Assembly (NCBI RefSeq): GCF_001936595.1
Contig: NZ_MLBG01000013.1
Location: forward strand, 1-64,000
Direction of reading: 5' to 3'
Source: Desulfovibrio sp. DV
Lineage (GTDB): Bacteria; Desulfobacterota; Desulfovibrionia; Desulfovibrionales; Desulfovibrionaceae
DNA length: 64,000 bases
In this document: positions 19,592-62,821 of the stretch, piece after piece
Numbering within the stretch: position 1 is the first letter of the stretch
How the letters are laid out: every line of letters starts with the position of its first letter
Position numbers and translations under genes: made by a program
Notes under the pieces: model-generated
Databases searched by the model: none
The model's input: the letters and a program-made list of their open reading frames with translations, nothing else
What the model was told of the DNA's origin: nothing

Positions 19592-19685
19592 TGGCGGAGA
19601 GGGTGGGATTCGAACCCACGTGCAGGCTATTAACCCGCAACCCGATTTCGAGTCGGGCCCGTTACGACCACTTCGGTACCTCTCC
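19592..19685 (-). tRNA. tRNA-Ser, anticodon CGA
   Basis: The minus strand gives GGAGAGG paired with CCTCTCC in the acceptor, discriminator G and an encoded CCA (19592-19594). The anticodon arm is CCCGA-CTCGAAA-TCGGG, anticodon CGA (reads UCG). A long variable arm, typical of serine tRNA, precedes the GTGGGTTCGAATCCCAC T-arm. Total 94 nt including CCA. Confidence 0.97.
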
Positions 19686-19771
19686 GCTCTGAGAACCAGA
19701 AGGAATTTGGGAAGCTATCCAGCAATCGACGGCTTGGCAAGCTTTTTTGCGCTTGTGACCGGGCAGGCGGA

Positions 19772-60510: not shown

Positions 60511-61074
60511 ATGAAACGCGCCATCACCATCATCGCCACATGTACCGTGCTCGTGCAGGCCGGGTGGGCCCTCGCCCAGGAATACACCCAGGGGACGAGC
60601 TATGTCGAACCCCGGGGCGGCGTGTACGGAACAACCAACAAGAACGTCGGCGTGGTTGGCACCTACGGCGGAGCCGTCGGGCATTACGTGGCCGACGGCG
60701 TGGCTGTCGAAGCCGAGGGCCTGGGCTACGCCGTGGATCAGACGACCAAGAAGGCCACGCCCCTTGGCGTCAGCAGCAAGGAAGAAACCAACAACGCCGT
60801 GGGTGTTGCCGCCATGGCCCGCTGGAACTTCGTGCGAACGCCCAAGGGAACACTCTTTGTCGGAGCCGGCGGCGGCGGCGTGTTTGCCGACAAAGAACTG
60901 CCCTATAACGGCTCCAAGCAAAGCGGAGCCGGACAGGCCGATGTCGGGGCTTCAGTGGCCCTGGCGAAAAACGTCAGCCTCAAGGCTGCCGGGCGCTACC
61001 AGCACCTGGGCTCGATGTCCGACAAGGGCCTGGACAGCCTGGGCGGGAACCTCGGCTTCAAGATCAGTTTTTAG
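60511..61074 (+). CDS. Small outer-membrane beta-barrel-like protein
   Basis: A 187-aa protein with signal peptide (1-22, ending ALA), Gly-rich alternating beta strands (VGVVGTYGGAVGHYVADGVAV) and a C-terminal FKISF aromatic end. It looks like an 8-strand barrel such as OmpA/OmpW-type or PagP-like proteins. Function is unknown. GGAG lies upstream of the ATG. Its 3' end overlaps the possible read-through extension of the minus-strand gene by 11 nt. Confidence 0.75.
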   Translation: MKRAITIIATCTVLVQAGWALAQEYTQGTSYVEPRGGVYGTTNKNVGVVGTYGGAVGHYVADGVAVEAEGLGYAVDQTTKKATPLGVSSKEETNNAVGVAAMARWNFVRTPKGTLFVGAGGGGVFADKELPYNGSKQSGAGQADVGASVALAKNVSLKAAGRYQHLGSMSDKGLDSLGGNLGFKISF

Positions 61075-61129
61075 GCCGGCCGGCGTCGTCGCCCTGGTCA
61101 GGGACGGAAGGGGGCGGCGAAGGCTTGGC

Positions 61130-61148
61130 GGAGTGCGGACCGCACCCC
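61130..61148 (-). promoter_or_regulatory. SECIS-like hairpin downstream of an in-frame TGA
   Basis: On the minus strand, GGGGTGCG-GTC-CGCACTCC (8 bp with one G-U pair) starts 11 nt after TGA 61162-61160. The loop GGTC, with the last stem base, sits about 18 nt from the TGA, as recalled for the E. coli fdhF SECIS apical loop (GGUCU). Structure is seen; function is inferred. Confidence 0.35.
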
Positions 61149-61159
61149 GTATCCACGCC

Positions 61160-61249
61160 TCAGCCTCGGATGCCAAGTTTGGGGAAGAGAAAGCGTACCA
61201 CCAGGAACCACGCGACCAGGACGCCGCCGAAAATAAGGAATTCTTTCAT
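61160..61249 (-). CDS. Small single-span membrane protein, possible selenoprotein if TGA is read through
   Basis: A 29-aa peptide ending with TGA at 61160-61162. It is mostly one membrane helix (EFLIFGGVLVAWFLVVRFLF) followed by PKLGIRG. The arrangement of a short hydrophobic helix and then PKLG is recalled from small proteins in other deltaproteobacteria, in which a Cys follows four residues later. Here TGA occupies that position. If TGA were read as selenocysteine, the frame continues through GVDTGCGPHSAK to another TGA at 61064-61066, giving 61 aa. The ribosome site is GGTGGG directly before ATG 61249 and is weak, so translation itself is not certain. Confidence 0.45.
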   Translation of the reverse strand: MKEFLIFGGVLVAWFLVVRFLFPKLGIRG

Positions 61250-61432: not shown

Positions 61433-62821
61433 GTGTGGCGGGCCGTTGTGGAATTTGAAAAGCATCTCAGGGAAATCGTCAACACCATGAGCGAGGGGCT
61501 CCTGCTTGTGGGTGCCGACGGTGCCATTGCCATGGTCAACGAGGCGCTCTCGCGCCTCACCGGCTATGGCCGGGAGGAGCTTGTCGGCCGGTCCTGCCGG
61601 GTGCTTGACTGCGACATGTGCGAGCAGGAACGTGGGCCTGGCGGTGGGGCGTGGTGCCGGCTGTTTGCCGAAAAGACCACCCGGGCCAAGCGCTGCATGA
61701 TCCGGCGCAAGGACGGGACCTATCTGCCGGTGCTCAAAAACCAATCGCTCCTGCGGGATACGGCCGGCCAGCCGCTCTTTGCCGTGGAGACCCTGACGGA
61801 TTTGTCCGAACTGGCCGGGCTGGACCGCAAGGTCGAGGAACTGACGCGGTTGCTCTCGGCCGACGAGGGCTTTCACGGCATGGTCGGGACCTCGCCGGCC
61901 ATGCGCCGGGTGTTTGATCTGCTTGAGCGGGCCGCCGCGAGCGATGCGCCGGTGCTGCTTATTGGCGAATCAGGCACGGGCAAGGAACTGGCGGCCTGGG
62001 CCATCCACGAGCTGGGCCGGCGGCGGCAGGGACCGTTTATTCCCTTCAATTGCGCCGCCTTGTCCGAAGCGTTGCTGGAAAGCGAACTGTTTGGCCATGC
62101 CAAGGGTGCCTTTACCGGAGCCCATCGCCACCGACAGGGCCGGTTTGAGGCGGCGGACGGGGGCGACATTTTTTTGGACGAAATAGGCGACGCACCAGCC
62201 TCCATCCAGGTCAAACTGTTGCGCGTCCTTGAGACCAAACGCTTCGAACGGGTGGGGGAAAACAGGTCCATGCACGCCGATGTCCGGGTCATTTCCGCCA
62301 CCAATCGCGATTTGCCCCGGCTCGTGTCTGCAGGGCGCTTTCGGGAAGACCTCTTTTTCCGGATAAACGTCATTCCCATCGAACTGCCGCCATTGCGCAC
62401 CCGGCTTGAAGACCTGGCCCCACTGGCCGAACATTTCCTGTGCCGTCTGGCCGCCCAGGCCAACCGGCCCGTGCCCTCCATTGCCCCGGAAACCATGCGT
62501 CTCCTCCTGGCCCATCCCTGGCCCGGCAATGTGCGCGAGCTCAAAAGCGCCCTGGAATATGCCTTTGTGGTCACCGACGCCGGTCCGGTGGAACCCCGGC
62601 ATCTGCCGCCGGCGCTTATCGTCCGGGCGGCCCCGGATGTGCTGGCCGAGGCCTGCCGGGCTCGGGCCGAACCCGAAGCCGGGCGCGGCGAACTCATAAA
62701 CGCCTTGCGCCTGGCCGGCGGCAACCGTTCCGAAGCGGCCCGGATAATGGGCGTCAGCCGCGGCACCATCCTCAACCGAATGCGCCGTTTCGGCGTGGAT
62801 TCTAGGCATGTTATTGAGTAA
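61433..62821 (+). CDS. PAS-AAA-Fis sigma-54-dependent transcriptional activator with a Cys-rich PAS
   Basis: A 462-aa activator. A PAS domain (about 8-125) carries a cysteine cluster ([12 protein letters not shown], then AWCRLF and KRCMIRR) that could bind a metal or sense redox. The AAA+ domain has [15 protein letters not shown] (sigma-54 contact) and the usual Walker B. A Fis-type HTH ([19 protein letters not shown]) is at the C-terminus. No receiver is present. GTG 61433 is the start used; GTG 61448 is an alternative. The following gene overlaps by 14 nt. Target promoters are unknown. Confidence 0.9.

Follow-up and report, generated by a model that had tools for sequence, protein, structure and literature searches.

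In eukaryotes, the selenoproteins SelK and SelS are built of one membrane helix and a disordered cytoplasmic tail that carries selenocysteine (Sec) near the C-terminus. The FeoB-associated Cys-rich membrane proteins are tiny, with one N-terminal helix and Cys residues in the tail, and MgrB is a small membrane regulator of a sensor kinase. Bacterial selenoproteins that depend on SelB and a SECIS element combine an in-frame UGA and the Sec machinery with rare Cys homologues and a hairpin downstream of the UGA. In the consulted part of a 2026 review (PMC13188914), the bacterial SECIS model places a G within the first two loop positions, 16–37 nt from the UGA.

The locus described here lies in the window, the whole 64,000-nucleotide stretch of Desulfovibrio sp. 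DV DNA that was analysed, and its in-frame UGA very probably encodes Sec in a small single-pass membrane selenoprotein of approximately 60 residues. This identity rests on the conservation of the TGA and of the tail that follows it, on a covarying hairpin in register, on the Sec machinery of the genome and on two natural replacements by Cys. The gene resembles the bacterial SelB/SECIS-dependent selenoproteins in its in-frame UGA, Sec machinery, rare Cys homologues and downstream hairpin, the loop G of which falls within the 16–37 nt range. It is unlike other bacterial selenoproteins in consisting of a single helix and a tail predicted to be disordered, with no enzyme fold, and in having a U-x4-6-C pair in place of the usual UxxC or CxxU.

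With SelK and SelS the family would share architecture alone, namely one membrane helix and a disordered cytoplasmic tail holding Sec, as a predicted helix, a low-confidence tail and a charge bias suggest, whereas its Sec stands approximately six residues from the helix and its hairpin is of bacterial type and lies within the gene; no SelK or SelS model of Pfam matched any of the 45 members scanned. It resembles the FeoB-associated proteins (PF12669) in size, N-terminal helix and tail Cys, and an origin from them was rejected, with 1 of the 45 members matching at E 2.3. The likeness to MgrB-type regulators lies in size, the single helix, two redox-capable residues and, in 8 of 55 loci, a kinase gene next door, and the difference in the predicted topology, that of MgrB being the opposite; Pfam gave no match to an MgrB-type family among the same 45 members.

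Reading frame and membrane anatomy

The reading frame (minus strand, 61064–61249) translates into 61 residues with Sec at position 30. It starts with an ATG at 61249, carries a TGA in frame at 61162–61160 and ends with a second TGA at 61066–61064. The residues before codon 30 are MKEFLIFGGVLVAWFLVVRFLFPKLGIRG (29 residues), followed by U-GVDTGC, and the tail after Sec reads GVDTGCGPHSAKPSPPPSVPDQGDDAGRPKN up to the terminal TGA. An earlier, sequence-only reading had described a frame passing from PKLGIRG-TGA through U-GVDTGC to an end at 61064, and the translation bears out both its coordinates and its description; the observation is confirmed, and it extends beyond what was claimed there.

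Residues 2–24 (minus strand, 61178–61246) make up a predicted membrane helix, defined by the hydrophobic sequence and by AlphaFold2, which returned one confident helix over these residues, with a mean pLDDT of 92 for residues 1–20, and a low-confidence tail. Codon 30 (minus strand, 61160–61162), read as Sec on the strength of the unbiased scan of relatives described below, is followed by a tail of 31 residues (minus strand, 61067–61159) with Cys36 at 61144–61142, giving a U-x5-C spacing; the tail as a feature is supported by its pN/pS and by counts of the downstream Cys across the family. The typical context of Sec is [FL]-P-[KR]-x-G-[IVL]-x-[GTS]-U. In 116 distinct genes, the next Cys follows Sec after 4 residues in 66, 5 in 27, 6 in 18 and 7 in 3, and is absent in 2. 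Two loci, L156 and L159, have a Cys directly before Sec (GLGC-U-Q), with no later Cys in the stretch examined.

Charges are unevenly distributed about the helix: over the 116-gene set, the first five residues hold 16 Lys or Arg and 108 Asp or Glu, and the twelve residues before Sec hold 256 Lys or Arg and 5 Asp or Glu. Owing to this bias, Sec is expected on the cytoplasmic face, and the protein is predicted to span the membrane once (N-out/C-in), with its N-terminus outside and its C-terminus in the cytoplasm. The Sec/Cys pair would then lie at the cytoplasmic face of the membrane, Sec itself approximately six residues beyond the helix.

Two genes flank the frame. The convergent one (plus strand, 60511–61074) is an open reading frame resembling those of outer-membrane barrels, with sub-threshold PagL/Opacity matches; it runs into the selenoprotein frame by its final 11 bases and is kept in 14 of 14 genus loci, as what is probably a conserved neighbour outside the function of the selenoprotein. 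The divergent one (plus strand, 61433–62821), recognized with Pfam as encoding a PAS/sigma-54 activator, is a mere neighbour found in 8 of the 14 genus loci. Just upstream of the start codon, the leader contains a hairpin and T run like those of a terminator (minus strand, 61296–61278), for which inspection by eye of 14 genus leaders gave no clear conservation.

The TGA column and the tail across relatives

A search with a 43-residue query found the gene, each time with a single TGA in frame, in the window genome and in 13 of 13 other genomes of the genus that were searched. A second search, with an alignment of 22 members (E ≤ 0.01), matched 137 of 297 genomes of the order and 168 of 395 of the phylum; the loci examined were the 30 best-scoring of each search, with the weaker matches mostly outside. 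Among 20 stretches examined, the column is TGA in 13 and Cys in 1, and 6 look unrelated (L167–L172). As L168–L172 are each the only match listed for their genome, at least 5 of the 137 order genomes hold no member of the family. Two weak hits, L031 and L035, which are Cys-rich in the manner of FeoB-associated proteins, were set aside for want of the P-[KR]-x-G-x-x-U motif, and L037 and L038 were set aside as unrelated.

The column was also scanned blind to its codon, with a pattern built solely from the residues that precede the TGA. This yielded 58 loci, comprising 56 relatives and two unrelated Variovorax loci (L162 and L165), which match the pattern and lack a stop codon there. TGA is present in all 56 relatives, at the exact position in 55 and one codon later in 1; TAA, TAG and Cys were found at the column in none of them. 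Further comparisons used a set of 122 loci, made up of 67 picked from the genus, order and phylum searches after removal of four non-members and of repeated genes, and of 55 of the 58 codon-blind loci, all but L157, L162 and L165; it provides 112 distinct downstream stretches, and a terminal stop for 116 distinct genes. TGA at the column is true of this set by construction and the terminal stops alone are a measurement: they are mixed, with TAA in 44 genes, TGA in 37 and TAG in 35.

If the TGA were an ordinary stop, the gene would yield a membrane peptide of 29 residues, and the hairpin behind the stop would be a terminator or RNA-stability element. Those 29 residues would make a complete membrane peptide by themselves, and they are the best conserved part of the gene, with a pN/pS of 0.19 before the TGA against 0.36 in the tail (52 gene pairs matched for tail length). 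Such a stop is nevertheless highly improbable, as neither TAA nor TAG takes its place in any of the 56 relatives, though the genes end in all three stops, as the tail is conserved as protein, as two relatives have Cys at the column, and as the hairpin occurs in SECIS register far more often than behind ordinary stops. Within the tail, pN/pS is 0.23 in the first 12 codons, where both rates are constrained by the hairpin, and 0.47 beyond (same 52 pairs). A tail pN/pS of 0.36 indicates purifying selection, which counters the worry, voiced when the frame was first noticed, that the tail might be open by chance in a GC-rich genome.

Two members replace Sec with Cys. The first, in G220, is a stop-free form, PKLGIKN-C-GSLPGSC, and is syntenic with the Sec form of its congener G224, PKLGIHG-U-GPGAESC: in both, the family gene lies downstream of the same, presumably aminotransferase-like, gene (68% identity across 369 residues), and the two loci have another upstream gene in common. 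The other, PALGVPT-C-MSGHC, occurs in G921, a genome of the KSB1-labelled phylum (L214, G921:C5:1377500-1378800). G220, G224 and G921 are all selA-positive, and the Cys forms are spaced C-x5-C and C-x4-C. The comparison of homologues at this column that the sequence-only reading suggested gives TGA in 56 of 56 relatives and Cys in two others; the expectation in that reading of Cys in related small proteins is borne out marginally, by these two homologues, Cys being rare.

A further relative, in the selA-positive genome G935, has TAA at the column, in PALGIPT-TAA-MNPDACRVPP (L215, G935:C54:20900-22200). It may be a pseudogene, a sequencing error or an unusual recoding.

The downstream hairpin and the selenocysteine machinery

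The SECIS-like hairpin (minus strand, 61129–61149) has arms at 61149–61141 and 61137–61129 that enclose a GTC loop at 61140–61138. Its 9-bp stem, CGGGGTGCG/CGCACTCCG, includes one G-T pair and begins 10 nt past the TGA, and the loop begins 19 nt after the TGA codon, which puts the hairpin inside the SECIS model as quoted in the consulted part of PMC13188914. An 8-bp hairpin at 11 nt, reported previously for this position, is the same stem without its outermost pair. Minimum-free-energy folding of the stretch yields this hairpin (z −2.53), and 6 of 200 shuffles fold equally well. A scan of 551 bases against Rfam gave one match, to sX12 at E 4.6, and none to a SECIS element or riboswitch.

Across the family, a simple stem rule finds 5 or more paired bases in the stem of 94 of the 112 distinct downstream stretches and a shorter one or none in 18 of 112, with none in 4. 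The 112 stretches reach a mean stem score of 16.1, whereas synonymous resamples give 6.2 and codon shuffles 5.1. A strong hairpin with its loop starting at 18–25 nt follows 77% of the 112 family UGAs. Among the ordinary stops that end long open reading frames within the same loci, such a hairpin follows 3% of 187 TGA, 5% of 108 TAA and 3% of 95 TAG codons. Covariation was assessed in 24 of the 112 stretches (23 of them distinct), which were picked by a GGA loop at a fixed distance and not by pairing. In the 23 distinct members, with the loop GGA at 23 nt, stem cells are paired in 94.4% of cases as against 71.5% in shuffles, two-sided changes occur in 6 of 7 stem pairs as against 4.5 (9 of 500 shuffles as high), and the stem covariation score is 0.722 as against 0.243. 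Further pair types are no more numerous in this set than in shuffles (143 of 500 as high). In the same genome as the window, the selD gene has CCAGG-GGA-CCTGG at 20 nt after its UGA, with the GGA that forms the loop in many family members.

The genome of the window holds the machinery that such a hairpin would serve. The earlier suggestion to look for selA, selB, selC and selD in this genome led to all four: selA (match at 2.0e-182), selB (372.5 bits), selC (83.3 bits with the tRNA-Sec model, gathering score 47) and selD (330.5 bits), the last of Sec type with a TGA of its own. The tRNA-Sec model, which was not fully specific in its controls, also places three other sites of the genome just over the gathering score (48–51 bits), with the best match well apart. 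Positions 19594–19687 of the window (contig C13) score 48.3 bits with this model and probably encode another long-arm tRNA.

In the mechanism proposed, SelB-bound Sec-tRNA would read the UGA of codon 30 as Sec, the hairpin 10 nt downstream would direct this recoding, and translation would stop at 61064. Read-through of the UGA by an ordinary tRNA, for example one for Trp, would instead yield a regulated long form without selenium. It too would leave the tail conserved, and it would fit the ten family-positive genomes, from two samples, in which selA was not detected. It is extremely unlikely, given that both natural replacements are Cys and not Trp, that the hairpin stands in SECIS register and that the family is associated with selA.

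This association was measured in two phyla. In the Desulfobacterota sample the family was matched in 161 of 355 selA-positive and 7 of 40 selA-negative genomes (Fisher p 0.0006), an overlap taken from the match lists, whose weak matches were examined in part; in the KSB1-labelled phylum it is present in 50 of 63 selA-positive and 3 of 19 selA-negative genomes (p 8e-7). For five of the seven selA-negative Desulfobacterota holders, a laxer cut-off still gave no selA. The family genes of these five carry the TGA, and their genomes are drafts of 60–520 contigs, so that incompleteness is likely, if not proven.

Relatives occur in three phyla: Desulfobacterota, Spirochaetota and the KSB1-labelled phylum. 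The first assignment follows from the presence in that sample of Desulfacinum infernum, recognized by selA coordinates and scores that are identical in G457 and G683. Cultured species with the gene include Desulfacinum infernum (L146) and Malonomonas rubra (L133). In the phylum sample of a Spirochaetota-labelled metagenome-assembled genome (MAG), 24 of 198 genomes match and 28 of 28 matches hold a TGA; in that of a KSB1-labelled MAG, 53 of 82 genomes match, 51 matches having a TGA, one being stop-free and one having TAA. The column itself was examined in 13 of these 28 and 15 of these 53 matches, the remainder being taken from stop counts. Four genomes of the Spirochaetota sample (G678, G680, G848 and G877) carry two copies of the gene each, the second diverged (L224–L227). 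On a contig labelled Chloroflexi (L132), the gene and its upstream kinase gene are nearly identical to those of L130 and L134 of Desulfuromonadaceae, and the contig is probably misbinned.

Against the selenoprotein reading count the ten family-positive genomes without detected selA (7 and 3 in the two samples), the TAA of G935, the 18 of 112 stretches with stems shorter than 5 bp or none, and the further pair types that do not exceed shuffles. The conserved TGA, the two Cys forms, the machinery and the conserved tail together support the interpretation as a selenoprotein that was originally put forward.

Possible functions and relation to known families

Comparison of the genus loci, the 55 loci and 12 further loci showed no neighbour shared across clades, and a function deduced from neighbours was therefore rejected. 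In most loci the gene seems to stand alone, and its function has to be read from its anatomy. The selenol and the Cys, usually 4–6 residues on, would form a reversible Se–S bond, and the protein may act through this pair as a membrane-anchored redox relay or sensor on membrane partners, the simplest of the functional readings, held tentatively. It is weakened by the absence of a downstream Cys in 2 of 116 genes.

The neighbours that do occur bear on a second, somewhat unlikely, role, in which the protein would be a small subunit that regulates a membrane partner, for example a sensor kinase or a pump, similar to MgrB and with Sec as its redox-responsive element. A sensor kinase gene lies 53–83 nt upstream on the same strand in 8 of 55 loci (L108, L116, L128, L130, L131, L132, L134 and L140, of the Desulfuromonas group or look-alikes), with a response regulator gene ahead of the kinase in 7 of the 8; the one kinase pair that was scanned, at L116, consists of an OmpR-type regulator and a HAMP/HisKA kinase. 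At L117 the family gene is downstream of an AcrB-family gene. Against such a partnership count the lack of a neighbour common to the clades and the near identity of three of the eight kinase loci (L130, L132 and L134). Other loci have PBP5-type, PLD-type, PilZ or methyltransferase neighbours, and the genes differ again in the 12 further loci. In four loci of one genus (L036 and L178–L180, the last three near alike), a frame starting MPIYEYKC, presumably an FmdB-like zinc ribbon, directly follows the gene.

Binding of a metal or metalloid ion by Sec and Cys at the membrane face, for transport, sensing or detoxification, is unlikely: each chain offers only two possible soft ligands, and no recurrent metal gene was recognized among the neighbours scanned. 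The C-x5-C and C-x4-C spacings of the Cys forms would suit it, and Sec is possibly a metal ligand in several metal-resistance selenoproteins according to the consulted part of PMC13188914. Since the UGA lies just past the helix, termination there would leave an intact membrane peptide, and the gene might be a switch that responds to selenium status, with one action for the truncated 29-residue peptide and another for the full-length protein. This is quite improbable, as truncation without selenium is common among selenoproteins and as the two Cys forms occur in genomes that keep selA.

Among 45 members scanned, the best matches were unrelated both in NCBIfam (E 0.003, to ATP synthase subunit B, in 2 members), which gave no selenoprotein model, and in Pfam (E 0.012, in 3 members), which gave no selenoprotein family. 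PHROGs gave three single-member matches (best E 0.0094), and the sequences of the PDB gave none. In Table 1 of the 2026 review (PMC13188914), which covers 119 families and subfamilies, no entry is recognizable as this family, and no earlier report was found in the consulted parts of the open-access literature, including PMC12013277, PMC8318568, PMC1914089 and PMC1794560; a listing in supplements is possible. The family is probably new within the known SelB/SECIS-dependent kind, but may have been listed elsewhere.

It is probably one of the commoner selenoprotein families of the Sec-using Desulfobacterota and KSB1-labelled phylum, with 161 of 355 and 50 of 63 selA-positive genomes, and a previously unseen one; it would be a counterpart of SelK and SelS in architecture, not in descent, that is, a membrane-anchored selenol without a catalytic fold. 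That it has gone unseen so far is put down to the near absence of Cys homologues and to an open reading frame that, when cut at the UGA, is too short for gene callers, 29 residues being below the usual limits. In the consulted part of their report, the authors of deep-Sep state that selenoproteins without Cys homologues may escape their method, and that such homologues now seem to exist for every known selenoprotein (PMC12013277). If the present interpretation is true, a widespread family would be added to the table of 119 and a blind spot of present methods would be exposed. With a short gene, a compact hairpin and cultured hosts, the question of what anaerobes gain from a bare selenol at this face of the membrane would become directly testable.
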